37,459 nt of DNA from a virus: the IMG/VR virus record IMGVR_UViG_3300017783_002442, positions 1-37,459 of that record; one strand, written 5' to 3'. Both the position numbers and the translations under genes were made by a program. Below, one piece after another: positions 3,238-36,480 of the stretch. Under the pieces are notes generated by a model. That model did not search any database, was not told where the DNA came from, and saw only the letters and a program-made list of their open reading frames with translations. Positions within the stretch are counted from its first letter, which is position 1, and every line of letters begins with the position of its first letter.

Positions 3238-4113
3238 ATGGCAACACTAACGATTACATCAAATGGTTTACCTAATCCAGCACAGTTTGGAAAGCCTTTT
3301 GGACAGAATGCTTTTTCACCAAGTGCTAACGTTGTAGGTTCACAATCATACAACTACTCATTTACCTACAGAGGTGGTGAGAATACAAGTAATCCACAGT
3401 TAGTTACTTCACTTACTCCAATAGGAATTATGAATAACGGTGTTGTATTTTTTAGTCCAAGTGCAGGAGTAGGACAAGTTCCTCCAGGATTAGATCCTAC
3501 AGCAGATGCACCAGGTACAAATTTTGAATATAATGCTGTTCAGTTTAGAACAAACTACGGCGGAGACGATGCAGGTGGGTGGCCAGAAACTACAGGACAA
3601 TATCATTATATGTCAGGACAGTTTTTAAACTTACCAACAGGATCATCAGAAGCTAACCCAGGTTGGCAGGCAAGTACTGTAACAGGTGCAAGTCCGGCCG
3701 CGGCATATTATACTGCCTCTGACTTTAGTGGAGACTATTTTAGACACGCAGATGGACACAGTAAAATATTAGGATATTGTTTTGATGGCTATCCTATTTA
3801 CGGACCTTATGGCTATTCAGACTACAATGACCCAGCGTCAGCAGTAGTTAGAATGACAAGCTCATATCAATACTACTCAACAGAACCAACAGGTAGAGGA
3901 TACTTGTATGGTGCCAAAACAGCAGGAACATTTATTAACGATCACGAGTATCAAATAGGTACAGGGTTATTAGATGAATTCAATGGTAGGTTTGAAAAAA
4001 CTCCTGAATATGTTAACGGTACATACTGCTATCACGTAACTGTAGACTCTAGTTTACAGCCCGTATATCCATACATTGTAGGTCCTAGCACTAAACAACA
4101 AAGAGCATATTAA
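3238..4113 (+). CDS. YHYH domain-containing protein
   Basis: This 291-residue protein has the hallmarks of the YHYH family. They are a GQYHYMSG segment near the middle, then HSKILGYCFDGYPIYGPYGY, and a YCYHVT segment close to the C-terminus. YHYH proteins occur in marine bacteria and phages, and their biochemical role is not established. The start is set by AAGG just upstream of the ATG. The flanking genes are a fibre-like protein and a giant esterase, so it may be part of the same appendage or may modify a surface polymer. That role is speculative. Confidence 0.75.
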   Translation: MATLTITSNGLPNPAQFGKPFGQNAFSPSANVVGSQSYNYSFTYRGGENTSNPQLVTSLTPIGIMNNGVVFFSPSAGVGQVPPGLDPTADAPGTNFEYNAVQFRTNYGGDDAGGWPETTGQYHYMSGQFLNLPTGSSEANPGWQASTVTGASPAAAYYTASDFSGDYFRHADGHSKILGYCFDGYPIYGPYGYSDYNDPASAVVRMTSSYQYYSTEPTGRGYLYGAKTAGTFINDHEYQIGTGLLDEFNGRFEKTPEYVNGTYCYHVTVDSSLQPVYPYIVGPSTKQQRAY

Positions 4114-4157: not shown

Positions 4158-7100
4158 ATGGCAGTACCACAGTGGACACAAAACTCAGGATATAAGTTAG
4201 GAACTCTACCCGAAAGAGTTACTACTTCTATCACACTACCTATTGCTCCAGGTTCAGCTAGTGGGTCAGGGTTTGACCCTGGTACTACAGAAATCAGCTT
4301 TCCTGCACAATCAAGAATATCAAACACAACTGTAATCAACATAGAGAAGACTTGGACACAGGGTGGTAATTCTGTTACTTACACTTATCCAATAGCAATT
4401 AGAATTCCAACTATTACTGCACTTAACGATAAACGTATTCCTGTTGCAATACTATTGCACGGATCTGGTGGTAATGGTATTAACGAGATAGGTAGTTGGC
4501 AAAACTACTTAGGTGATCATATTCTTGTTGCACCAACTGGTTACAACAACGAATGGAACGTTGCACACGAAAACACAAAAGCACCAGACATAGAATTTTT
4601 ACAGGATTTAATTACACAACTTAAATTGTTTAGTAACGTAGATAATACTAAAATTAGAATGGTAGGTTTTAGTAACGGTGCGGCATTGGCAAACAGAGCA
4701 TACGTGCAAATAGACGATACAGCATTAGATGTTATTTGTACAATAGGCACACAGTTCTTTGATCCAATGTTAAGAAACAGCACATTTTATATTCCATCAG
4801 ATCAAACAGGTATTACAACAGCAGAATACAATACTGCAAAGACTCCGTACCAACCAAGAAAGTTTTTAAACATACATGGTACAGCAGATGCAACTATTCC
4901 TTACACAGGTGGTTCACATAGCTTCGGTTATAGTTTCTTAGACGCTCAACAAAGTGTTTTTGAAATAGCAAAGTCACAAGGTTATACAGGCGGTGTTATT
5001 CCTGACGTAGGAGGAATATACTATGGTATAACAGGTGTATACTATTACTCATACCTCGCAGGACAAGTTACACACTACAAGACACCAGCAGGACATGGTG
5101 TAGAAGATTATATGAAACAGATAATTGGTCTGTTCTTAGGTTACACACAGGAGTCGGCACCTAACATATTCTTAGAGCAAGGTTCTGTAACAGATATTAA
5201 TTTAAACACAGACGTGATTACACTTATTAGTGGAGAACTTCCACCAGGTATGCGTTTGGTAGATAACAAGGTTGTAGGTACTCCATTTGAAGTAGCTAGA
5301 GATACAGTATTTGAATTTGTCCTAAGGGCACAAAACAGTGATGGTGTTAGAGATAGAACACTTAAGATAGAAGTACAAGGACCTGATGTTCCTATTTGGA
5401 CAACAGCCGCAGGTAAGTTACCATTAGGACCTAATAACAGTTTTTATATATTAGATAGTAGTGTAGTAGACTTTCAGCTTTCAGCCATAGACGCAGACTT
5501 ACCAACAGGGCAAAGTTTAGAATATTATATTGCTGACGGAGACGGAACACTACCTCCAGGAATACAATTAACCACAGATGGTAAGTTGGTTGGTATTGTT
5601 GATCCTATATTAGCACTTGACGAAAGAAGTGGTAATGGATTTTACGACATGGCACAGTTTGATTCATATGCGTTTGACTTTGGTATGAGAAGTGCAAACG
5701 GTTTTGAAAGTTATTACTACGATACGCAAGGATACGATTATGCTATTAAGACACAGAGTCCTAGAAAACTAAACAGAACATACGAATTTACTGTTAGTGT
5801 TAGTGATGGCGATACTATAACAGAAAGAAAGTTTCAAATATTCTTAGTAGGTGATGATTTCCTACGTGCTGATAATACTATCATGCAAATAGGTACAGGA
5901 ATATTTACTGCGGATAATACTTACATAAGAGTACCTATGTGGTTAACTCCTGCGGACTTAGGTTTCAAAAGAGCAAACAACTACGTAACTATTTTCTTAG
6001 ATGTGTTTGATCCTAACGCACTTGTAGGAGAATTAAGATACGTATTAAGAGCAAATAACCCAGATGGTACAACAAGCACAATACCACCAGGCATGGCACT
6101 AGATGTTACAACAGGTGAGATAGCTGGTCGTGTACCTTATATGCCTGCGGTTACTAAAGAATACAAATTTACAATTTCAGCTCAAAGATTTATAGATCAA
6201 AGTTTATATGCTGAAAAAGAAAAAACATTTACAGTAAAAGTATTAGGTGAAGTTGAAAGTACAATTACTTGGAATACTGCGGAGGCACTTGGTAGCATCA
6301 ATGCAAACTTTATTAGTACGTTTGCCGTTAGTGCCACAACAACTGTAACTGACACAGCATTACTATATGATGTAACAGCAGGAAGTTTACCACCAGGATT
6401 GATACTTAACCATAATGGTGAAATTGTTGGTAAGGTAAGACAGTTTGCATCAGGAACCGATTTAGGACTAACAACTATTGATAACAATAATTTTAGTATG
6501 GACGGCGGTACAACTACTACTGATAGAAAATTTAGTTTCACAGTAAGAGCTAGAGATAGATTTGGATTTAGTGCAACTACTAGACAATTCAATATCGTTG
6601 TTAGTGATCCAGACAACATTACATACAGTAACCTCTACGTAAAACCCCTTCTTAAAAGCACACAGAGGTCTGCATACAGCAACTTCATTGGTGACCCTAA
6701 CGTGTTTACACCCGGATCAATTTATAGACCAAACGATGCAGAATTTGGGTTACAAAAAGAAGTTAAGATGCTTGTATATTCTGGATTGGAAACAAAAGAG
6801 ATTAGAAACTATATCGCGGCAACTAGATTAAACCATAAACGAAAAAGATTTAAAATGGGTACAATTAAAACTGCCACTGCTAAAAAGACAGGAACCAATA
6901 CGTCTGTATACGAAGTAGTGTATGTTGAAGTAATAGATCCAAGTGATATAAACAGTGGTACATTAAAAGTAAGAGCAAAGGATACTATTAGAAGTGATAA
7001 GAAGATTACTGTTGATAGTGTTGAATATGAAACAAGTGATGATGCATCTAAGGAAGGTGCAGGATTGGCTGTCTTTACTATTGTTAACTCCATTGGTAGA

Positions 7101-7640
7101 AATGTAATTGTTAGGGCGTTCGGAAACGATCTATCTATTCTAGCAAGAAACGGTGGTAGCATAGTTATTGATGCTAACGGTATTATCCAAGTAACTACTA
7201 GGACTGGTGTTTCGTTAACTGCTGGACAGATTGCAACTACTTCAAGTGATCCATTTAGATTTAGACCAGACGGTACACCGATCAAGGTATCAAGTACTGC
7301 CGTTAACATTAGTGATCCAAATGATCAAAGCAGATACATTAGTAACATCACTAACATGAGAGATAATCTAAGCAAGGTGGGTACTACAGAGCAGAACTTC
7401 TTACCATTATGGATGTCAACTGCACAGACCAATTCAGTAGAAGAATTAGGCTACGTAACTGCTATTCCACTATGCTATTGTAAGCCTGGAACAAGTGCCC
7501 AAATACTGCTTAATATACAGAATAATGGGTTTGATTTCCGTCAATTAGACTTTGAAATTGACAGATATATCATAGATAATACTACAGGAAACAGCAACGA
7601 GCAGTATATTCCTTTCGGGAATTATAGCTTTAATGTTTAA
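4158..7640 (+). CDS. Large tail-associated esterase with Ig-like (He_PIG) repeats
   Basis: This is a 1160-residue multidomain protein. Residues about 80-330 form an alpha/beta-hydrolase of the polyhydroxybutyrate-depolymerase/feruloyl-esterase (LpqC) type. They show an HGSGGNG oxyanion loop, nucleophile GFSNGA (Ser172), HGTADATIPY (Asp244) and AGHGV (His313). Four putative Ig motifs of the form (L/I)PPGxxL...G(x)(I/V)(V/A)G follow, at residues about 361, 465, 642 and 744. The last 300 residues are unassigned and end in a compact beta-rich segment. It is transcribed from its own late promoter. It is probably an adhesin or depolymerase arm that hydrolyses an ester in host polysaccharide, lipid or polyester. 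The substrate is unknown. Confidence 0.78.
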   Translation: MAVPQWTQNSGYKLGTLPERVTTSITLPIAPGSASGSGFDPGTTEISFPAQSRISNTTVINIEKTWTQGGNSVTYTYPIAIRIPTITALNDKRIPVAILLHGSGGNGINEIGSWQNYLGDHILVAPTGYNNEWNVAHENTKAPDIEFLQDLITQLKLFSNVDNTKIRMVGFSNGAALANRAYVQIDDTALDVICTIGTQFFDPMLRNSTFYIPSDQTGITTAEYNTAKTPYQPRKFLNIHGTADATIPYTGGSHSFGYSFLDAQQSVFEIAKSQGYTGGVIPDVGGIYYGITGVYYYSYLAGQVTHYKTPAGHGVEDYMKQIIGLFLGYTQESAPNIFLEQGSVTDINLNTDVITLISGELPPGMRLVDNKVVGTPFEVARDTVFEFVLRAQNSDGVRDRTLKIEVQGPDVPIWTTAAGKLPLGPNNSFYILDSSVVDFQLSAIDADLPTGQSLEYYIADGDGTLPPGIQLTTDGKLVGIVDPILALDERSGNGFYDMAQFDSYAFDFGMRSANGFESYYYDTQGYDYAIKTQSPRKLNRTYEFTVSVSDGDTITERKFQIFLVGDDFLRADNTIMQIGTGIFTADNTYIRVPMWLTPADLGFKRANNYVTIFLDVFDPNALVGELRYVLRANNPDGTTSTIPPGMALDVTTGEIAGRVPYMPAVTKEYKFTISAQRFIDQSLYAEKEKTFTVKVLGEVESTITWNTAEALGSINANFISTFAVSATTTVTDTALLYDVTAGSLPPGLILNHNGEIVGKVRQFASGTDLGLTTIDNNNFSMDGGTTTTDRKFSFTVRARDRFGFSATTRQFNIVVSDPDNITYSNLYVKPLLKSTQRSAYSNFIGDPNVFTPGSIYRPNDAEFGLQKEVKMLVYSGLETKEIRNYIAATRLNHKRKRFKMGTIKTATAKKTGTNTSVYEVVYVEVIDPSDINSGTLKVRAKDTIRSDKKITVDSVEYETSDDASKEGAGLAVFTIVNSIGRNVIVRAFGNDLSILARNGGSIVIDANGIIQVTTRTGVSLTAGQIATTSSDPFRFRPDGTPIKVSSTAVNISDPNDQSRYISNITNMRDNLSKVGTTEQNFLPLWMSTAQTNSVEELGYVTAIPLCYCKPGTSAQILLNIQNNGFDFRQLDFEIDRYIIDNTTGNSNEQYIPFGNYSFNV

Positions 7641-7674: not shown

Positions 7675-8241
7675 ATGGCAAGTAATATTAGTACTACAGG
7701 AGTTGATGCAACATTTCCGATAGCAGGTCAGGATAATGACTCGCAAGGATTCAGAAATAACTTCAATACTGTTAAAAATAACTTTACAGCGGCTAAGAGT
7801 GAAATCGAAGCACTACAAACTGATACTGCAAAGTTAAATGCCGCAAACAACTTTCTAGGAAATGACGTTAGCGGAGCAAACTTAATAGCTAACACAGAAA
7901 AAGTATATCCAGGTGGAACACTAACAGGTCCACAAAACATATCATTTACAAATGGTAACTATCAAACGTTTACTATTGGTAATAGCATTACACTTACATT
8001 TGCGGACTGGCCAGCATCAGGCAAAGTAGGTAAGATTAGATTAGTGTTACTAGACACACTTGGCGACAGTACAACTAGAGTGGTAACTTGGGCAACATCA
8101 GGTGGCGGTGCAATTAAGTACGGTCCAGGATTTCCAAGCCCATTTAACGTTGCTTCAAATGTAAACCCAGTTGTGGTTGACTTTTGGACTGACGATGGTG
8201 GAACTACTGTGTATGCTGAGTACGTTGGCGTCTTTAGTTAA
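7675..8241 (+). CDS. Putative virion structural protein (fibre/appendage)
   Basis: This 188-residue protein has an N-terminal GFRNNFNTVKNNF stretch resembling the RExFxKVxxNF motif of the gene at 2524. A short predicted coiled coil (residues about 25-60) follows, then a beta-rich domain from residue 85 with alternating hydrophobic and Gly-rich strands. The arrangement resembles small fibre-end or appendage proteins of T4-like marine phages, where an N-terminal anchor carries a beta-sandwich tip. It has its own late promoter, so it is expressed late and probably in quantity. The exact particle position is not known. Confidence 0.62.
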   Translation: MASNISTTGVDATFPIAGQDNDSQGFRNNFNTVKNNFTAAKSEIEALQTDTAKLNAANNFLGNDVSGANLIANTEKVYPGGTLTGPQNISFTNGNYQTFTIGNSITLTFADWPASGKVGKIRLVLLDTLGDSTTRVVTWATSGGGAIKYGPGFPSPFNVASNVNPVVVDFWTDDGGTTVYAEYVGVFS

Positions 8242-8494: not shown

Positions 8495-9016
8495 ATGCTG
8501 ATGAAAACTGACGAACTAGGTATACCACGATTCTCTAACAAGGACTTACTTGATATGATCTATACAGGACATATTGATAAGTGCCATGTGGTATTGTGTG
8601 ATCCAAATGATGACATAGAAAAGTTTAATGTACACGCAGAAGAAAATGGTTTAGACACACTAAAGAAATACGTTCCATTAGATGTTGATAAAAACACTTT
8701 TGATGGAGTATGTCAAGGTGAATGGTTTATGCCAGATGAATTTAAACAAATGGACGTTGCAAACTACGTAATTGGTAAATGCAAAACTCCAGAAGAAATC
8801 CAAAGAGTAGAAGAAGAATTTAGAGCATTTGAAAAAAGAGATATGCTCAATTTATTACGTTATATGGTATATTTGGTAGATCATATGCGTAAGAACAATA
8901 TTGTATGGGGAGTAGGACGTGGTAGTAGTACGGCTAGTTATGTTTTATTCTTAATTGGAATACATAAGATCAACTCAATCCAGTTTGGACTAGACTGGCG
9001 TGAGTTCCTTAGATAA
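8495..9016 (+). CDS. DNA polymerase III alpha (DnaE)-like fragment protein
   Basis: This is a 173-residue protein. Its C-terminal third reproduces the bacterial replicase (DnaE/PolC, family C) segment just before the active site. The GVGRGSSTASYVLFLIGI motif matches GRGSGAGSLVAYxLxIT, and the DWREFLR ending matches the FExFL that precedes the PDxDxD catalytic motif. The protein stops there, so the catalytic aspartates are absent and polymerase activity is not expected. It may bind DNA or nucleotide, or modulate host DnaE. An ATG at 8501 is an alternative start. A sigma70-type promoter precedes it. Its TAA stop is embedded in the late promoter of the next gene. Confidence 0.7.
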   Translation: MLMKTDELGIPRFSNKDLLDMIYTGHIDKCHVVLCDPNDDIEKFNVHAEENGLDTLKKYVPLDVDKNTFDGVCQGEWFMPDEFKQMDVANYVIGKCKTPEEIQRVEEEFRAFEKRDMLNLLRYMVYLVDHMRKNNIVWGVGRGSSTASYVLFLIGIHKINSIQFGLDWREFLR

Positions 9017-10340: not shown

Positions 10341-10360
10341 TGACAGATTAAATACTGTCA
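10341..10360 (+). promoter_or_regulatory. Late promoter octamer inside a perfect dyad
   Basis: ATTAAATA (10347-10354) is flanked by the perfect 6-base inverted repeat TGACAG/CTGTCA, which ends at the A of the next ATG. Initiation is predicted at 10360, the start codon itself. There is no Shine-Dalgarno upstream. Confidence 0.6.
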
Positions 10361-10962
10361 TGCAGTTCGACCAAGAAAAAATTAAATATTTCGATGATGT
10401 AGTACCGTCCTGGTTACATCAACAAGCACAAGACACAGTTCCATACCTTCCACTTAAATGGGGACACAGAGGATTAGGTCCTTATCAAGGACATCAGTTC
10501 TTTAGTGATGTATGGAAACATGAAGAAATAGAAAATGCACCTTGGGTGCTACGTGCTATTTGGTCATCGTTTGAACAACACAAACACCAGATCGATCCCG
10601 ACGTTGGTGACATACAGCTTAACCAGATCCAAGTTAACTTGACAACTAAGGACCATATAGGTGGTCTTCATGTTGACACACAAGGCGACACTCCAGCATA
10701 TACTATGGTTTATTCAGTTATAGGCGATAGTGGTATGGACTTTTATAATAGCGACAGTGAACTAAAACATACAGTTGACTATGGTGATGCTAGATGCATA
10801 GTATTCCCTAGTGCAATGATACATCAAGGACAACCGCCTAAGGAAACAAGTCCAAGAGTAACAGTAGGATTTATCTTTAGTGGAGTGGCATCTAAATTTG
10901 CTAGAGACAGAGGAGTTATTATGCCTATATTTAAAAAGGAGCAAGAGAAAATTGTCCAGTAA
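10360..10962 (+). CDS. 2OG-Fe(II) oxygenase (prolyl-4-hydroxylase-like)
   Basis: This 200-residue protein has a double-stranded beta-helix with the iron triad LHVD (His104, Asp106) and MIHQG (His155). The 2-oxoglutarate-binding Arg lies in SPRVTVGF about 13 residues later. It opens with a KYFDDVVPSWL segment shared with its downstream neighbour. Such enzymes hydroxylate proteins, nucleic acids or small molecules using oxygen and 2-oxoglutarate, and several copies are usual in marine T4-like phages. The substrate is unknown. The ATG lies five bases after a late octamer, so the mRNA may be leaderless. Confidence 0.8.
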   Translation: MQFDQEKIKYFDDVVPSWLHQQAQDTVPYLPLKWGHRGLGPYQGHQFFSDVWKHEEIENAPWVLRAIWSSFEQHKHQIDPDVGDIQLNQIQVNLTTKDHIGGLHVDTQGDTPAYTMVYSVIGDSGMDFYNSDSELKHTVDYGDARCIVFPSAMIHQGQPPKETSPRVTVGFIFSGVASKFARDRGVIMPIFKKEQEKIVQ

Positions 10963-11506
10963 TAATATAATAGTGTTTGATGACATAGTTCCTGATTGGC
11001 TACGTGAACAAAGCGAAGCAGTACTTCCGCACCAACCGATAACGTTCGGACAAAAAGGCTTTATGTCTACTTGGCCTAATCTAAATGATTTACCTTGGGA
11101 ATTAAAAGCTATATGGTGTGCATTCAATTACAGGCGTGATGACGTAAAATCAAAGATTCCATTGTTTGGAAAAGCAGGTAACTTAAACTTGTTAAATGTA
11201 CAAACCAATATGTCCACTCAAGAACATCACCCTGATATAGTAGCAATGGACGAACCATATGATGTTGACGGAACAGGTAAGATGGTTTATTCACAAAAAT
11301 CGAATTGGGTATTTTATTATATGATACAAGGCGATAGTGGAATGGAATTTTATCACAGAGATGGTAAAACTATTTTTGAAACTGTTGAATTTAAACCGGG
11401 TAGAGTAGTAACCTTTCCTGCTAGGACACTACACAAAGAATTGGAACCAAAAGAGCTATCACCAAGATTCTCCGTTTCATATCTTTTTTCCGGATTATAT
11501 GCTTGA
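10952..11506 (+). CDS. 2OG-Fe(II) oxygenase, second paralogue
   Basis: This 184-residue homologue of the preceding gene shares a VFDDIVPDWL opening, GDSGMEFYHRDG, ARTLHKELEP and SPRFSVSYLFSG. The iron ligands are probably the His and Asp of EHHPD and the His of TLHKE, with the 2-oxoglutarate Arg in SPRF. I choose TTG at 10952 because it aligns the N-terminus with the paralogue and has AAGGAG ten bases upstream. It overlaps the previous gene by 11 bases. A sigma70 -35 element begins inside its last codons. Tandem duplication with divergence of the substrate pocket is inferred. Confidence 0.75.
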   Translation: MSSNNIIVFDDIVPDWLREQSEAVLPHQPITFGQKGFMSTWPNLNDLPWELKAIWCAFNYRRDDVKSKIPLFGKAGNLNLLNVQTNMSTQEHHPDIVAMDEPYDVDGTGKMVYSQKSNWVFYYMIQGDSGMEFYHRDGKTIFETVEFKPGRVVTFPARTLHKELEPKELSPRFSVSYLFSGLYA

Positions 11507-25506: not shown

Positions 25507-25779
25507 ATGAAGAACTTTATTAATATTGTATGGGATAACAAGGCGTTAAGCGAAGTAGATGAGTATTTGGTAGATACTGTACTAGAATGTGCTGATGAAG
25601 GCTTGTTAGAAGACGAAACTAACTACGAAACATACGATACTGCTGAAGGTGGAACTGTATTAGCTGTAGAGCTACATAAACAGCTAAATGACGACGAATC
25701 CACTGTTATAGCAGAGCGATTAGCTAATAAATTGTTCGATCTAGGCCACAATAACTTCGATATCGAAATTTCCGTCTAG
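25507..25779 (+). CDS. Small acidic hypothetical protein
   Basis: This 90-residue, strongly acidic protein (Asp/Glu-rich, with LEDETNYETYDTAEGG) is predicted alpha/beta. No motif is recognised. It starts nine bases after the preceding gene and shares that late transcript. An acidic, soluble late product could be a decoration or DNA-mimic protein, but this is a guess. Confidence 0.58.
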   Translation: MKNFINIVWDNKALSEVDEYLVDTVLECADEGLLEDETNYETYDTAEGGTVLAVELHKQLNDDESTVIAERLANKLFDLGHNNFDIEISV

Positions 25780-25819: not shown

Positions 25820-26194
25820 ATGTCTAAAACATTTACAGATTATTTAAAAGAAGCTGAAGAGCAGAACCGTTGGGTTGAGGAAACTTATGAAGGTGATGAC
25901 TTCTATATCGCATACGGTGATATGTGGTTCAACGAAGACGAGCTTGTAGACGAAGCAGAATATCAAGGACGCAAAGTAAAACTTGGCAAGCCTATGCAAG
26001 GCGATGTTAAGAAGTTTAAAGTATACGTCAAGGATCCAAAGACTAAAAACGTTAAAAAAGTAAACTTTGGTGATCCTAATATGAGAATTAAAAAATCAAA
26101 CCCTGGAAGACGCAAGAGCTTTAGAGCAAGACACAACTGCGATAATCCAGGACCAAGAACAAAAGCAAGATATTGGAGTTGCCGCAAATGGTAA
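25820..26194 (+). CDS. Late protein with capsid-targeting-like N-terminus
   Basis: This 124-residue protein starts MSKTFTDYLKEAEE. That closely resembles the T4 internal-protein capsid-targeting sequence MKTYQEFIAEA, with LKE|A as a prohead-protease (L/I)xE cleavage site. The middle is acidic, and the last 40 residues are a basic tag (RRKSFRARHNCDNPG, then KARYWSCRKW) with two Cys and two Trp. Packaging into the head as an internal protein is inferred. Late promoter and Shine-Dalgarno are good. Confidence 0.7.
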   Translation: MSKTFTDYLKEAEEQNRWVEETYEGDDFYIAYGDMWFNEDELVDEAEYQGRKVKLGKPMQGDVKKFKVYVKDPKTKNVKKVNFGDPNMRIKKSNPGRRKSFRARHNCDNPGPRTKARYWSCRKW

Positions 26195-26526
26195 AACTTG
26201 TTGAATTCACAGACGATCAAAACGAAACAGACTTAGGGTTTAGTGTTGTTGAAGACTTATGTCAACACATGAAAAACGATCCTATGTTTTATCGCAAACA
26301 ATATTATCCAATGATGGCATACATACAGGATAAGTTGAAGAAGGGCGAAGTTGTTGATCAAAGAGAAACCTTAGCACCAATGATAGAAAAGGGCTGTAAG
26401 CATTACTGCTCTAAATACGATATTCCTAAAAGTCCAGAAGAACTCTTAACTAAAGAAGACTATACTGCAATAGTTGAAAAGTTATATGGAGAAGAAATGG
26501 AGTTGATTAGAGATGGAGAGTACTAA
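26188..26526 (+). CDS. Late conserved hypothetical protein
   Basis: This 112-residue, largely helical protein is placed at ATG 26188 because GGAG lies nine bases upstream and it gives a four-to-eight-base overlap like its neighbours. It contains NDPMFYRKQYYPMM and EKGCKHYCSKYDIP segments with two Cys, no membrane helix and no catalytic motif. Its stop overlaps the next ATG by one base. A head-assembly or packaging role is inferred only from context. Confidence 0.6.
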   Translation: MVKLVEFTDDQNETDLGFSVVEDLCQHMKNDPMFYRKQYYPMMAYIQDKLKKGEVVDQRETLAPMIEKGCKHYCSKYDIPKSPEELLTKEDYTAIVEKLYGEEMELIRDGEY

Positions 26527-27566
26527 TGTTTCTAAGGGAACTATTCGAGGCTCCTAAAACTGCCGTATTTGCCTTTGGGCGAATGAATCCTCCTACAATA
26601 GGACACGCAAAGTTAGTTGATGTTATTAAGCAACAGGAAGGTAAACCTTTTCTTTTCTTAACACATACACAAAAGCCTAAGACAGATCCTTTATCATTTG
26701 CAGAGAAAGTTTTCTTTGCACAAAAAAGTTTTCAAGGCGTTACAATAGGTGACGGTGCAGTAAAAACAATTATCCAAGCTATGCAAAAACTTGAGAAGGA
26801 CGGTTATACAGATATCGTTTATGTAGCAGGATCAGATAGAGTTGCATCATTTGAAAAACTATTAAATGACTACAACGGAAAAGATTATAATTTTAATTCA
26901 ATCAATATAGTAAGTGCAGGCGAACGTGATCCAGATGCCGAAGGTGCAGAAGGTATGAGTGCAAGTAAAATGAAAGCCGCGGCCGCTGACAACGACTTTG
27001 AAACTTTCAAACAAGGTGTTGCTGGAGATGAGAAACTAGCACAGATGATGTTTACTAAAGTTAAGGCTGGTATGGGTGTACAAGAAACCCTAGATGAGCT
27101 AGTAGTAAAACAACAAAAGCCTAAACTAGATGTAATTAATAATATTGCATCACGTTCAGACACCAAACCTTTTCCATTAAGTTGGAATGCAAATGACAAT
27201 GAAATAACAGTAGGTGGCAAACTTTATATTACACCTAAAGAAGCAGATAGATTTATGCGTTTTTATGACGAAAGAGCTAAAGACGAACAAGAGCTTATGC
27301 AAAAGGCTTTAAGAAGTGCAAAGACAACAGTAACATTATTTAAAAACTTAGGCTTTAAGGGTAACTTTGTTGCTGATAGAAAAACAAATGAAAACTTTGC
27401 AGACGGTAAAAAAAAAGGTAAATCCAGACCAGGACGAGTAAAGAAGTCAGGTGCAAGTTGTAATGGTTCGGTAACAGATTTAAGGGCGAAAGCCAAAAAA
27501 GCATCAGGTGAAAAAGCAAAGATGTATCACTGGTGTGCTAACATGAAGTCAGGGAGAAAGAAGTGA
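26526..27566 (+). CDS. Nucleotidyltransferase-fold protein, possibly capsid-targeted
   Basis: This 346-residue protein has an N-terminal MFLRELFE|APK, a possible capsid-targeting peptide with an LFE cleavage motif. A cytidylyltransferase/NMN-adenylyltransferase domain (residues about 12-165) follows, with GRMNPPTIGH (T/HxGH, His27), YVAGSDR and a C-terminal EGMSASKMKAAA (ISSSxxR-like). Residues 170-300 are unassigned. The end is a Lys-rich tag with KKGKSRPGRVKKSGASC and MYHWCANMKSG. It may make or break a nucleotide or NAD product inside or beside the capsid. Residues are suited to catalysis but the substrate is unknown. Confidence 0.75.
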   Translation: MFLRELFEAPKTAVFAFGRMNPPTIGHAKLVDVIKQQEGKPFLFLTHTQKPKTDPLSFAEKVFFAQKSFQGVTIGDGAVKTIIQAMQKLEKDGYTDIVYVAGSDRVASFEKLLNDYNGKDYNFNSINIVSAGERDPDAEGAEGMSASKMKAAAADNDFETFKQGVAGDEKLAQMMFTKVKAGMGVQETLDELVVKQQKPKLDVINNIASRSDTKPFPLSWNANDNEITVGGKLYITPKEADRFMRFYDERAKDEQELMQKALRSAKTTVTLFKNLGFKGNFVADRKTNENFADGKKKGKSRPGRVKKSGASCNGSVTDLRAKAKKASGEKAKMYHWCANMKSGRKK

Positions 27567-27736: not shown

Positions 27737-27884
27737 CGAGAACCCTAGCATAACTGCTACCGCTATACGTAAAAAAGAAAAGAAGATGGGTGTAAAGCCT
27801 GGTGACAAAGATTGGTTTAAACTTTGGTTCAGTAAGCCTTACATGACAGGTACTCCTGCTTTTAGAGGTAGAAAGAAGAAGTAA
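27660..27884 (+). CDS. Small late protein with MDDIKTLQRLAG-type N-terminus
   Basis: This 74-residue protein begins with tandem Met then DDIKTLQRLAGI. That N-terminal pattern also occurs in small proteins of other marine T4-like phages as I recall. The C-terminal half is basic and Trp/Phe-rich (KDWFKLWFSKPYMTG, ending RGRKKK). It overlaps the previous frame strongly and its stop overlaps the next ATG by one base. It joins the group of short, tagged proteins here that may be head-associated. Confidence 0.6.
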   Translation: MMDDIKTLQRLAGIGQFEGYTEYKVDENPSITATAIRKKEKKMGVKPGDKDWFKLWFSKPYMTGTPAFRGRKKK

Positions 27885-29455
27885 TGAAGCTACGTCAACT
27901 ATATGAAAATGGTGGATTAATTGTACCAGGTGTTAATACTACAGCAGACGTAGGTCCCGACGAAATCAAAAAACAAGCGGCCAAACTAGGATTAAAGGTT
28001 GACAAAAAAGGAATTCCAGCTTATAATATGCACAAGAAGGCTCATAAAAATAGTGATCCAAATACATTATTCAATTTAGGATTAGCTGAGTCAAAGGAAG
28101 AGATATGGAACGAATGGAAAATTATGCCACAAACTATTAAGCCAATGGGTTTAGTACACAAGGCAGGAAAAGGACCTAACAATAGGTTTGGTTATAAGAA
28201 CAAAGGCAATAACAAAGCCAACGAAGCTAGTGAACAAGAGATATCAAGTGCTAGTGAAATATACGTTGACATGGACGGTGTCCTTGTAGACTTCTTTGAT
28301 GCCTGGACAAAACTATTAGGTGTAAACGATTGGAAAGAAATAAAAGATGTTCCAGCCGCATTACAAAAGATTAGAGATACAAAAGACTTTTGGATAGATT
28401 TAAAACCTACTTCAAACTCACAAAACTTATTAAACATCATTAAAGATCTAAAAGGAGAGTACACAATATTAAGTGCTCCTATGTCTGATGATGAAAGAGT
28501 AGAACCTAGTAAACGTGAATGGGTAAAGAAACATTTAACACAGTTTCCTCCCAAAGAAGTTATTATTAGTGCAAACAAAAGTCAATACGCAACACAATCA
28601 GACGGAACTCCTAACATACTAATTGACGACTTTGGTCAAAACGTTAGTAAGTGGGAAGCTTCAGGTGGTGTAGGATTTAAACACAAAGATCATAAGTTCG
28701 AAAGAACTGCAAATAATTTAAAACAGTATTTTGAAAAACCTGTTGAGGAAAGAGAATTGAGTAAGGGCGAAGAAAAAGATAAAGAACGTTTCGTAAAAGG
28801 CATGAAGAAGAATTCAAAGGACTTTAAGAAACGTTATGGTAAAGATGCTGATGCGGTTATGTATGCAACAGCAACAAAGATGGCTAAAGAAGGCGATCTT
28901 ATTCCTTTACCAAAGAACAGCTTTTCAATAGATTCAGATGCTACAGATTACGACTTTATGAAACTAGGACGTAACATGGCCAACATAGCAACAACAAATA
29001 AAGATGATGCTAACATGGGTGATCAAGATATTATGTTAAACTTCTTTGGTGGAGATGTAGAAGCTAAACACATGATCAAGAACCTAAAACGTTTAGGTTA
29101 CAAAGTTGGTGATGTAGCTGGCTATCAAGATCATAACTTTGATCCTGAGCCTACAGATGGAGAAGCACCACCACAGGTTAAAAGCAAAGATGTACCACAG
29201 TTTATATCACACAAGGGCAAGGTGCCATTAGACAAGCTAAAGCCCGTACAACGTGACCGTAGCTGGGCTAAACTAGGTAAAGCATTACAACGTACAGGCG
29301 ATAGGAAATACTCTCCTATACTAGTTGATAGAGATGGTTATATTGTAAATGGACATCATAGATACGATTCACTACGTTTACGTGGGCAAAAAGAAGCTAG
29401 AATACACATGATCAATGGAAGTTTAAAAGAGATCATGCAACTAATGAAAAGATAA
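27884..29455 (+). CDS. HAD phosphatase/ParB-like fusion, possibly capsid-targeted
   Basis: This is a 523-residue multidomain protein. It starts MKLRQLYE|NGG, similar to a capsid-targeting peptide with LYE cleavage motif. A HAD domain of 5'-deoxyribonucleotidase type follows (YVDMDGVLVDFFDAW with Asp129 and Asp131; later ILIDDFGQNVSKW). Next comes a repeated-type tag (FVKGMKKNSKDFKKRYG, then VMYATATKMAKE). The C-terminus is ParB/sulfiredoxin-like, with YSPILVDRDGYIVNGHHRYD (GHHR at 490-493). The HAD residues are intact, so nucleotide or phosphate-ester hydrolysis is likely. A perfect sigma70-like promoter lies inside, near codon 40. Confidence 0.75.
   Translation: MKLRQLYENGGLIVPGVNTTADVGPDEIKKQAAKLGLKVDKKGIPAYNMHKKAHKNSDPNTLFNLGLAESKEEIWNEWKIMPQTIKPMGLVHKAGKGPNNRFGYKNKGNNKANEASEQEISSASEIYVDMDGVLVDFFDAWTKLLGVNDWKEIKDVPAALQKIRDTKDFWIDLKPTSNSQNLLNIIKDLKGEYTILSAPMSDDERVEPSKREWVKKHLTQFPPKEVIISANKSQYATQSDGTPNILIDDFGQNVSKWEASGGVGFKHKDHKFERTANNLKQYFEKPVEERELSKGEEKDKERFVKGMKKNSKDFKKRYGKDADAVMYATATKMAKEGDLIPLPKNSFSIDSDATDYDFMKLGRNMANIATTNKDDANMGDQDIMLNFFGGDVEAKHMIKNLKRLGYKVGDVAGYQDHNFDPEPTDGEAPPQVKSKDVPQFISHKGKVPLDKLKPVQRDRSWAKLGKALQRTGDRKYSPILVDRDGYIVNGHHRYDSLRLRGQKEARIHMINGSLKEIMQLMKR
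27999..28027 (+). promoter_or_regulatory. Intragenic perfect sigma70 motif (TTGACA-N17-TATAAT)
   Basis: Both hexamers match consensus at all twelve positions, with a 17-base spacer. The motif lies inside the HAD/ParB gene, on the same strand. It could drive an mRNA from about 28034, with no obvious start near it, or be a chance result of coding. Confidence 0.35.
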
Positions 29456-33798: not shown

Positions 33799-36480
33799 AT
33801 GAGCTACGTAGATGCACAATTCGATCGTGACCAAGACGTTATAAGAGTAGTAGAACGTAAAGAAGGTAAACGACATTTCACAGAATATCCTGTAAAGTAC
33901 ACTTTCTATTATAAAGATCAAAGAGGAAAGTATAAAAGTATTTACGGTGATCCCCTAAATAGAATAGTAGCTAGAAATACAAAGCAGTTTAGAAAAGAAC
34001 TTGCTATAAATCAAAACAAAGAATTATTTGAGAGTGATGTCAATCCAATATTCCAATGCTTGAGTGAGCAATACTTAAATGTAGATGCTCCTAAACTAAA
34101 CGTTTGCTTTTTTGATATTGAGACTGACTTTGATCCAGAAAGAGGATTTGCTGATCCAAGCGATCCGTTTATGCCAATAACTGCAATCACAGTACACTTA
34201 CAATGGCTAGATAGTCTTGTAACATTTGCACTTCCTCCTAAGACACTTACAATGGAAGAAGCAAAAGAACAATGCAAAGAATTCCCTAATACATACTTGT
34301 ATGAAAAAGAAGGTGATATGCTTGAAGCATTTCTTGATATCATACAAGACGCAGACATACTAACTGGTTGGAACAGTGAAGGTTATGATATTCCTTATAC
34401 TGTAAACAGAGTGAAACGTGTATTGAGCAAAGATGACACAAGACGTTTTTGTTTATGGAAACAACTTCCTAAGAAACGTGAGTATGAGAAGTATGGTAAG
34501 AAGGCTGAAACCTATGACCTAATAGGTAGAGTGCATTTAGATAGTTTAGAATTATATCGTAAATACACATATGAAGAACGACACACATATAGACTTGACG
34601 CTATTGGCGAACTTGAGATCGGTGAAAACAAAACTGTTTACGAAGGTACACTCGATCAACTTTATAACAATGACTTCAAGACATTCATTGAGTACAACAG
34701 ACAAGACGTTGCACTACTGGACAAGCTGGACAAAAAACTAAGGTTTATTGATCTTAGTAATGAACTAGCTCATGCAAATACTGTTTTGCTACAGACCACA
34801 ATGGGTGCAGTAGCAGTTACAGAACAAGCAATTATTAATGAAGCACATCACAGAGGACTACAGGTTCCTAACAGGCCTAAACGTGACGAAGAAAATACTG
34901 CGGCGGCAGGTGCCTATGTTGCATTTCCTAAAAAAGGTTTACACAAATGGATAGGTTCAATGGACTTGAACAGTCTATATCCTAGTGTTATTCGTGCATT
35001 GAATATGGATCCTGCAACTATTGTAGGACAACTACGTCCTGAACATACAGAAGCATTCGTGCAAGATCAAATGACATTACAGAAGAAGTCGTTTGCAGGT
35101 GCATGGGAAGGTAAGTTCGGTACACTAGAGTATGAAGCAGTTATGGAGAAAAGAAAAGACTTCAACATAACAGTAGACTTTGAGAACGGCGATAGCGAGA
35201 TGTTAAGTGCCGCGGAAGTTAACAAACTAATATTTGACAGCAACCAACCATGGATGCTAACTGCTAACGGTACTATACTAACTAACGAACACGATGGTGT
35301 TATTCCAGGCTTGTTAAAACGTTGGTATAGCGAACGTAAAGAGCTTCAAGCTATGAAAGGAAAAGCCATTGACGCAGGTAATAAAACAGAGATTGCGTTT
35401 TGGGATAAACGTCAGCTTGTTAAAAAAATTAATCTTAACAGTTTATACGGTGCTATTCTTAACCCTGGTTGCAGGTTTTTTGATAAACGCATTGGCCAAA
35501 GTACTACACTTACTGGTCGTGCTATCGCAAAACACATGAGTGCAGAAGTTAATAAAGTTATTACAGGCACATATGATCACGTAGGAGATAGTATTATATA
35601 TGGTGATACTGACTCTGTGTACTTTAGTGCATTTCCAATACTAAAGAAAGAGATTGAAGCAGGACAGATTCCTTGGACAAAAGATAGTGTTATTAAACTT
35701 TATGATCAAGTATGTGAAGAAGCAAACAAAACATTTCCTAAATTTATGATGGATGCTTTTCATTGTCCTAAGAGCAGATCAGATGTTATTGCGGCAGGTA
35801 GAGAGATTGTTGCAGAAAGCGGATTGTATATTACAAAGAAACGTTATGCGGCTTTGATATATGACAACGAAGGACAACGTATGGACGTGGAAGGTAAAGA
35901 TGGTAAGGTTAAAGCTATGGGCTTAGATCTTAAACGTTCTGATACTCCTGTGTTTATGCAAGACTTTCTAAGTGAACTACTAATGATGGTGTTACAAGAA
36001 ACTCCTGAAAAAGAGATACTAGATCGTATTAGTGAATTTAGAACAGAATTTAAACTACGTCCTGGTTATGAAAAAGGTTCACCTAAACGTGCAAACAGGA
36101 TTGGTGATTATCAACGTAAGGAACAACGTGAAGGTAAAGCAAATATGCCTGGACACGTAAGAGCAAGTATCAATTGGAATACACTTAAACGTATGAACAA
36201 CGACAAGTATTCGCAAGAGATTGTAGATGGAATGAAAGTTATTGTATGTAAACTAAAACAAAATCCACTAGGCTATACAAGTGTTGCTTATCCTACAGAT
36301 GAACTACGTATTCCTGAATGGTTCAAAGAACTTCCATTTGATGGAGATGCTATGGAGTCAACTATTATTGACAACAAGCTAGATAATTTAATTGGTGTGC
36401 TTAATTATGATGTTGCAAGTACACTACAAAAAAATACATTTAATAACCTATTTGACTTTGGAGGTGCAGATGAAAGCTAA
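33799..36480 (+). CDS. 43: Family B DNA polymerase (gp43)
   Basis: This 893-residue replicative polymerase has Exo I FFDIETD (Asp106, Glu108), Exo II LTGWNSEGYDIPY and Exo III YNRQDVALLD. Pol motif A is SMDLNSLYPS (Asp389), motif B KKINLNSLYGA and motif C YGDTDSVY (Asp603, Asp605). The C-terminal TFNNLFDF matches the clamp-binding end of T4/RB69 gp43 (FDMFDF-type), but is followed here by GGADES. Length is normal (RB69 is 903). Together with gp44 and DexA-type exonuclease it forms the phage replication set. Its SD and hairpin suggest autoregulation. Confidence 0.97.
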   Translation: MSYVDAQFDRDQDVIRVVERKEGKRHFTEYPVKYTFYYKDQRGKYKSIYGDPLNRIVARNTKQFRKELAINQNKELFESDVNPIFQCLSEQYLNVDAPKLNVCFFDIETDFDPERGFADPSDPFMPITAITVHLQWLDSLVTFALPPKTLTMEEAKEQCKEFPNTYLYEKEGDMLEAFLDIIQDADILTGWNSEGYDIPYTVNRVKRVLSKDDTRRFCLWKQLPKKREYEKYGKKAETYDLIGRVHLDSLELYRKYTYEERHTYRLDAIGELEIGENKTVYEGTLDQLYNNDFKTFIEYNRQDVALLDKLDKKLRFIDLSNELAHANTVLLQTTMGAVAVTEQAIINEAHHRGLQVPNRPKRDEENTAAAGAYVAFPKKGLHKWIGSMDLNSLYPSVIRALNMDPATIVGQLRPEHTEAFVQDQMTLQKKSFAGAWEGKFGTLEYEAVMEKRKDFNITVDFENGDSEMLSAAEVNKLIFDSNQPWMLTANGTILTNEHDGVIPGLLKRWYSERKELQAMKGKAIDAGNKTEIAFWDKRQLVKKINLNSLYGAILNPGCRFFDKRIGQSTTLTGRAIAKHMSAEVNKVITGTYDHVGDSIIYGDTDSVYFSAFPILKKEIEAGQIPWTKDSVIKLYDQVCEEANKTFPKFMMDAFHCPKSRSDVIAAGREIVAESGLYITKKRYAALIYDNEGQRMDVEGKDGKVKAMGLDLKRSDTPVFMQDFLSELLMMVLQETPEKEILDRISEFRTEFKLRPGYEKGSPKRANRIGDYQRKEQREGKANMPGHVRASINWNTLKRMNNDKYSQEIVDGMKVIVCKLKQNPLGYTSVAYPTDELRIPEWFKELPFDGDAMESTIIDNKLDNLIGVLNYDVASTLQKNTFNNLFDFGGADES

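Follow-up and report, generated by a model that had tools for sequence, protein, structure and literature searches.

We asked what kind of protein is encoded by a large gene at positions 4158-7640 of a 37,459-base virus record (IMGVR_UViG_3300017783_002442; this whole stretch is called the window below), which a first-pass annotation made from the sequence alone had described as an esterase-adhesin. The longest minus-strand open reading frame (ORF) within the gene covers only 166 amino acids (aa), and the single minus frame that was translated is rich in stops. The 1160-aa protein carries the motif [LI]PPG at aa 361, 465, 642 and 744, each time followed by a G/N-x-[IVL]-[VA]-G turn; this pattern occurs four times in the real protein and was absent from all 5000 shuffled versions. 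The repeats matched the immunoglobulin (Ig)-like He_PIG family (PF05345) with 45.3 bits, above the Pfam gathering cut-off of 24. The ORF, the residues Ser172, Asp244 and His313 and the four repeats of the annotation were thus borne out. The reading that we favour, and hold to be rather likely, is a virion-associated esterase at the level of the tail fibres or baseplate, nested in the first Ig-like domain (Ig1) and predicted to de-esterify a host surface glycan by a catalytic activity that is itself predicted.

Which enzyme does the hydrolase part resemble? The region from aa 49 to 323 matched the second half of the family phrog_2576 (E 3e-65). In the AlphaFold model the hydrolase blocks mostly scored 87-95 in predicted local distance difference test (pLDDT) units, with ∼75-80 for Ig1, a poor C-terminal third and a mean of 65.8 for the whole protein. 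Among solved structures (VIA-align), aa 49-329 came closest to acetyl xylan esterase B of Aspergillus oryzae (9j07; Z 25.6, root-mean-square deviation 2.9, 249 aa aligned), followed by a feruloyl esterase (Z 22.3) and a polyhydroxybutyrate (PHB) depolymerase (8daj, Z 21.9). When the whole protein was searched against Protein Data Bank sequences, 9j07 was the only match with E up to 1 (E 1e-8); the Ser and Asp motifs are aligned, and the His lies outside the aligned part. The Ser, Asp and His are invariant across a 9-sequence alignment, and in a 60-row alignment of esterase domains, which includes the window twice, all three are present in 54 rows, the Ser is missing from five and one ends before the His. 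Matches to hydrolase profiles stayed below threshold and were rejected as labels: short-chain polyhydroxyalkanoate (PHA) depolymerase type 1 (NF050058, the best NCBIfam match, E 6e-9) with 35.8 bits against a cut-off of 150, Abhydrolase_2 (PF02230) with 14.7 against 23 and Cutinase (PF01083) with 13.7 against 25.9. The fold is nevertheless clear, because both the AlphaFold model and the structure comparison show it: as modelled, the domain is an α/β-hydrolase of the acetyl xylan/feruloyl esterase type with a GxSxG elbow and a predicted Ser-Asp-His triad. The intact triad and hydrolase fold of the first-pass annotation therefore stand, and the fold comparison it had proposed returned a confidently modelled domain nearest to esterases; as to the type, annotated as LpqC/depolymerase, acetyl xylan and feruloyl esterases are closer than PHB depolymerases. 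A depolymerase of PHB-like polyester or of lipid, instead of a glycan esterase, would fit the NCBIfam match and the similarity to 8daj, but that match falls far short of its cut-off and acetyl xylan esterase B is nearer both by sequence and by fold, and we regard this alternative as quite unlikely.

We also asked where in the chain the hydrolase sits. In a 17-sequence alignment (six proteins with the hydrolase and 11 without it, the latter drawn from the 26 esterase-less relatives found), both flanks match across a clean gap of ∼300 aa, so on this alignment the hydrolase is placed inside Ig1. The start of the window protein, WTQNSGYKLGTLPERVTTSITLPI, matches the N-terminus of the scaffold proteins that lack a hydrolase (bare scaffolds), and its local scores exceeded the best of 2000 shuffles for six of six homologues (82 versus 42, 91 versus 42, 68 versus 41, 70 versus 34, 66 versus 43 and, narrowly, 47 versus 46). 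Because of the gap and of this N-terminal match, a simple end-to-end fusion was rejected; the hydrolase and the repeats, annotated as fused, do share one gene, but one is inserted into the other. In a tree of 53 scaffold cores, whose root is unknown, whose long branches are uncertain and which includes near-copies, a single branch (80/99; 83% of 200 bootstraps) separates the 26 esterase-bearing rows from the rest, which is consistent with a single gain. For the whole model, Foldseek returned cadherin repeats (E 4e-17), but with TM-scores of at most 0.24 (a flexible chain). A β-helix of the trimeric tailspike type was not noticed among the 50 matches listed for each structure search (whole model and viral models), the C-terminal part being poorly modelled.

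The scaffold was found with four different loads. Identical copies and copies contained in another protein were discarded, so that the counts are of distinct proteins, although many loci share a contig; the counting used five profile models (seeds of 7, 4, 4, 4 and 3 sequences including window proteins; boundaries approximate). The window appears twice in the C-terminal seed set, and the seeds also include the proteins of Atu_ph07 and Phosso; matches of the models to their seeds are therefore no independent proof. Bare scaffolds number 26 (25 of them, with 783-1085 aa, came from a scaffold-alignment search, followed by later searches; that search covered the best 80 of 183 candidates and bare forms are under-sampled). 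The esterase is nested in Ig1 in 31 distinct proteins and a truncated one. An esterase followed by a YHYH domain stands ahead of an intact Ig1 in six viral contigs and in a protein that we call L181, and two scaffolds, in Atu_ph07 (gp329) and Phosso, are headed by an S8 protease. A YHYH ORF, counted anywhere in the retrieved flank (in the locus maps it adjoins the gene or an SbmA ORF intervenes), accompanied 30 of the 30 distinct nested-type proteins with >1.5 kb of upstream sequence and none of the 23 bare ones with as much, and an S8 ORF was present in the flank of 17 of the 26 bare proteins. The usual gene order at scaffold loci is an S8 gene, a ∼234-aa protein resembling the gp9/10 N-terminus, the scaffold gene and a ∼187-aa protein; an ORF of 185-192 aa follows both nested and bare scaffold genes wherever the contig extends far enough (L157 and L015 end too early). 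This exchange of heads suggests interchangeable tools against a host surface coat.

Like the window protein, Atu_ph07 gp329 (which matches phrog_3677) and the Phosso S8 peptidase-Ig protein combine Ig-like domains with the C-terminal scaffold and are followed by a related gene; unlike it, they have an N-terminal S8 protease head instead of the esterase, and the scaffolds align with ∼25% identity. In the database search this link was modest (E 3e-2 and 2e-3 for the best pieces); within a small set compared pairwise it comprised three colinear pieces, the best with 7e-12. It is supported by the structure search against viral models, in which the Atu_ph07 protease ranked fifth, after a YHYH cyanophage protein and an S8 protein of ACG-2014h at ranks 3 and 4. 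L181 (1802 aa) consists of the esterase, YHYH, an intact Ig1, the remaining scaffold and the C-terminal module, and comes from a 335-kb contig (PBPT01000016.1, 335,231 bases; G008:C57) filed under a Neomarinimicrobiota metagenome-assembled genome. As 46 of the 102 window ORFs of at least 60 aa match a 60-kb stretch of this contig with their order mostly kept (four of the 46 are antisense overlaps), the contig, which resembles those of jumbo phages, belongs to a phage relative; identity reaches 80% for the DNA polymerase and 87% for the clamp loader. The arrangement in L181 is no assembly accident, since six IMG/VR contigs, one cut at its end, share it. We considered whether YHYH and the esterase had entered jointly in a single cassette. 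At the locus the two occur together, but YHYH precedes the esterase in the window type, whereas this order is reversed in L181 and L292-L297; a single acquisition and two separate ones are therefore indistinguishable.

Away from the scaffold, the esterase is fused to YHYH in 14 distinct complete proteins and to S8 in seven; in 15 longer proteins (1020-1151 aa) it comes last. The one of these 15 that was scanned (L062) has a baseplate-wedge-like N-terminus (phrog_17744, E 3e-87), and the S8-esterase of S-MbCM7 has a gp9-connector-like C-terminus (phrog_677, E 2e-11). A scan of genome contigs gave 79 esterase loci (best 80 of 88), with record titles naming Bacteroidota, Phycisphaerales, Verrucomicrobia and others, and the scaffold was absent from the esterase ORF in all of them but L181. 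By eye, many cellular relatives look equipped with a signal peptide and with a tail of secretion type or resembling a dockerin. The hydrolase arm that had been annotated as uncommon is therefore no isolated oddity, being one among several arrangements of the same enzymes. The esterase is best read as one of three co-travelling, exchangeable enzymes. More tentatively, with a chance that we put somewhat below even, the conserved Ig scaffold could be a single 'tool slot' in the tail-fibre/baseplate cluster of jumbo-related phages, left bare or loaded with a protease, a nested esterase or an esterase-YHYH pair. On this reading, the several arrangements in which esterase, YHYH and S8 fuse predict that these enzymes act together on one baseplate substrate layer, and the esterase would have turned into a non-catalytic binder in some lineages.

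Is the protein part of the particle? One relative, on a contig of 199,810 bases, has the following genes upstream of its scaffold gene: a tail-fibre-like one encoding 2709 aa, one for a gp9/10-N protein, a gp9-connector-like one encoding 802 aa (phrog_677, E 4e-34) and two for S8 proteases. Of the 21 ORFs of at least 120 aa in L180, the four that were scanned comprised a ligase, two ORFs whose matches are structural or tail-like and one to which no function was assigned. The YHYH-esterase gene of three cyanophages precedes genes annotated as gp9/connector and wedge. Earlier reports predict that YHYH is a metal-dependent hydrolase associated with the tail (PMC7824862) and note structural proteins with YHYH domains in pelagimyophages and cyanomyophages (PMC7029224). 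The window clamp loader is nearest to those of jumbo phages (the PA5oct group, Atu_ph07, Phosso and XacN1), and the Atu_ph07 scaffold gene (CDS 329, which we take to be gp329 of GenBank) lies at the edge of a virion cluster supported by mass spectrometry. Judging from the neighbours, the fusions and the Atu_ph07 cluster, the protein is probably located at the baseplate or tail fibres, and the annotated structural gene is rightly called probably a tail structural gene. If the protein were instead a non-virion late product, released at lysis to degrade extracellular matrix or free the progeny, the secreted appearance of the cellular relatives would fit; but the scaffold shared with the gene at the edge of the Atu_ph07 cluster, the tail-fibre and connector-like neighbours and the fusions to baseplate-wedge-like and gp9-like parts make this very unlikely, the least probable of the alternatives.

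Several observations weigh against a virion-borne, catalytic esterase. The C-terminal module, modelled separately, had a mean pLDDT of 56 and gave no confident fold for the proposed anchor. A dedicated search found a tail sheath in none of seven related contigs, so the tail type is implied by the connector-like genes alone. Finally, the catalytic Ser is absent from seven of the 32 distinct nested-type proteins, replaced by Gly in L114, L118, L288 and L174 and by Asp in L122, L124 and L125, and the scaffold tree puts these losses in no fewer than two separate positions; catalysis is therefore dispensable in some members. These losses would be expected if the hydrolase fold served mainly as a binding head (adhesin- or lectin-like) whose catalysis is dispensable and being lost, as would the ratios of nonsynonymous to synonymous substitution (dN/dS) in four Ser-less pairs, 0.31-0.41 for the esterase part and 0.14-0.28 for their own scaffold. 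However, the dN/dS contrast is weak, since Ser-bearing pairs also have a fast esterase (L010-L013, 0.28 versus 0.13-0.15; L119-L115, 0.30 versus 0.21 and 0.32); with these pairs coming so close, relaxed selection is weakened as an explanation, and decay of the Ser-less esterases is suggested rather than established. Moreover, the window triad is intact, seven window-to-relative pairs gave an esterase dN/dS of 0.07-0.23, indicating that this part is maintained by purifying selection, and all 36 rows of other architectures in the 60-row alignment retain the Ser. We thus consider a binding head unlikely, though less so than a polyester depolymerase, and keep to the esterase.

In L122, L124 and L125 the nucleophile position reads GFDTG, and the triad Asp and His are retained. 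These variants resemble the Asp-nucleophile α/β-hydrolases, but decay is the simpler reading of the substitution. In L122, L124, L125, L174, L279 and copies, the YHYH and esterase genes are separated by a gene for an SbmA/BacA-family transporter (L124 3945-4970, PF05992 E 1e-115). A tight link with Ser loss, initially four of four, was weakened by L279, which has SbmA and keeps the Ser; the Ser is lost in four of five distinct SbmA-bearing proteins and in three of 27 others (two of these three without upstream sequence), with few independent events. We found no literature on a phage-encoded SbmA/BacA transporter.

The features of the window gene and of its neighbours are listed in the table.

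Table. Features of the esterase/Ig-scaffold gene and its surroundings in the window
Feature	Position	Strand	Basis or remark
Second S8 subtilase, cut at the left contig end	1..864	+	PF00082 E 1e-12
S8 subtilase, 544 aa	864..2498	+	PF00082 E 4.5e-22; Ser motif found with a script; motifs of Asp (from 146) and His (from 201) picked by eye
gp9/gp10-N-terminus-like protein, 234 aa	2524..3228	+	PF07880 24.3 versus 25 bits (just below); phrog_677 E 3e-9, aa 1-34
YHYH-domain protein, 291 aa, putative partner enzyme or binder	3238..4113	+	PF14240 E 1e-35; phrog_2576 first half E 4e-83
Esterase/Ig-scaffold protein P0001, 1160 aa	4158..7640	+	single uninterrupted ORF, ATG start
aa 1-31, first strands of Ig1 before the insertion	4158..4250	+	aligned with N-termini of esterase-less homologues; shuffle test
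aa 50-333, inserted α/β-hydrolase (acetyl xylan/feruloyl esterase-like)	4305..5156	+	phrog_2576 second half; AlphaFold; structure match 9j07
Ser172 codon, predicted nucleophile (GFSNG)	4671..4673	+	motif, conservation
Asp244 codon, predicted triad acid (HGTADA)	4887..4889	+	motif, conservation
His313 codon, predicted triad base (AGHG)	5094..5096	+	motif, conservation
aa ∼340-412, rest of Ig1	5175..5393	+	alignment, AlphaFold; approximate boundaries
aa ∼413-818, Ig/cadherin-like domains 2-4	5394..6611	+	He_PIG, Foldseek; approximate boundaries
aa ∼819-1160, conserved C-terminal module (LPLWM ... DRY), proposed virion anchor	6612..7637	+	common to the S8-headed Atu_ph07/Phosso proteins
188-aa protein	7675..8241	+	N-terminus 48% over 54 aa to the gene after the S8-Ig gene in Atu_ph07

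The two adjacent S8 subtilases at 1-2498 share 31% identity over 299 aa, and such a pair recurs upstream of many nested-type genes. Elsewhere in the window, endonuclease V (phrog_274) was matched by two overlapping ORFs in different frames (10360-10962 and 10880-11506). The ORFs at 25507-25779 and 25820-26194 correspond to the two ends of one 188-aa ORF in the 335-kb relative, that is, to a split gene or a sequence break. Compared with two ORFs of the same relative (C57 120431-121741 and 122382-124667), segments of 26526-27566 and 27884-29455 come in a shuffled order, which suggests recombination in a cytidylyltransferase/NT5C-like region. A 173-aa protein (8495-9016) has a partial match to DNA polymerase III α (PF07733) and 67% identity in the 335-kb relative; a separate 893-aa DNA polymerase is encoded at 33799-36480.

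Among the closest known systems, phrog_2576 of Synechococcus myoviruses (S-ShM2, S-SSM4 and ACG-2014d, for example) shares both the esterase and YHYH with the window and lies near gp9/gp8-type genes. There, however, both halves form a single gene of 571-590 aa with no Ig scaffold, whereas in the window they are split over two genes (3238-4113 and 4158-7640), with the esterase in the Ig protein, and do not form a single chain. The Aspergillus enzyme 9j07 and the feruloyl esterases share the fold, and 9j07 the aligned Ser and Asp motifs, but 9j07 is a cellular enzyme with 25% identity, and the phage substrate is one that we infer. The tailspike deacetylases of Vi phages and c341 have other folds. 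Virion-associated esterases or lipases are already known or predicted in other phages: these deacetylases and the predicted virion-associated lipases of Cellulophaga phages (PMC5380687) resemble the proposed role in hydrolysing esters of surface polymers. Within the parts of the literature available to us, we found no description of the nested esterase or of head exchange on this scaffold; our literature search likewise returned no feruloyl esterase in cyanophages, no feruloyl-type phage baseplate esterase and no joint role for S8, YHYH and esterase.

How could such a protein work? We infer that it is located in the particle, with the C-terminal module anchoring it there and the Ig/cadherin-like domains projecting the chain outward. 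An acetyl xylan/feruloyl-type hydrolase would have been acquired by insertion into the first Ig-like domain, and on host contact it may strip ester groups from a surface glycan, with O-acetyl or other acyl groups as the likeliest targets. The neighbouring YHYH protein and the S8 proteases would work on the same coat, clearing it or exposing a receptor. The insertion point provides one natural way to mount an enzyme on an Ig chain. The fusions tie S8, YHYH and the esterase together, and YHYH, a predicted metal-dependent hydrolase associated with the tail (PMC7824862), gains an esterase partner. With one scaffold, matching neighbours and four different loads, among them an Ig-nested enzyme, these loci represent a natural experiment in phage re-arming.

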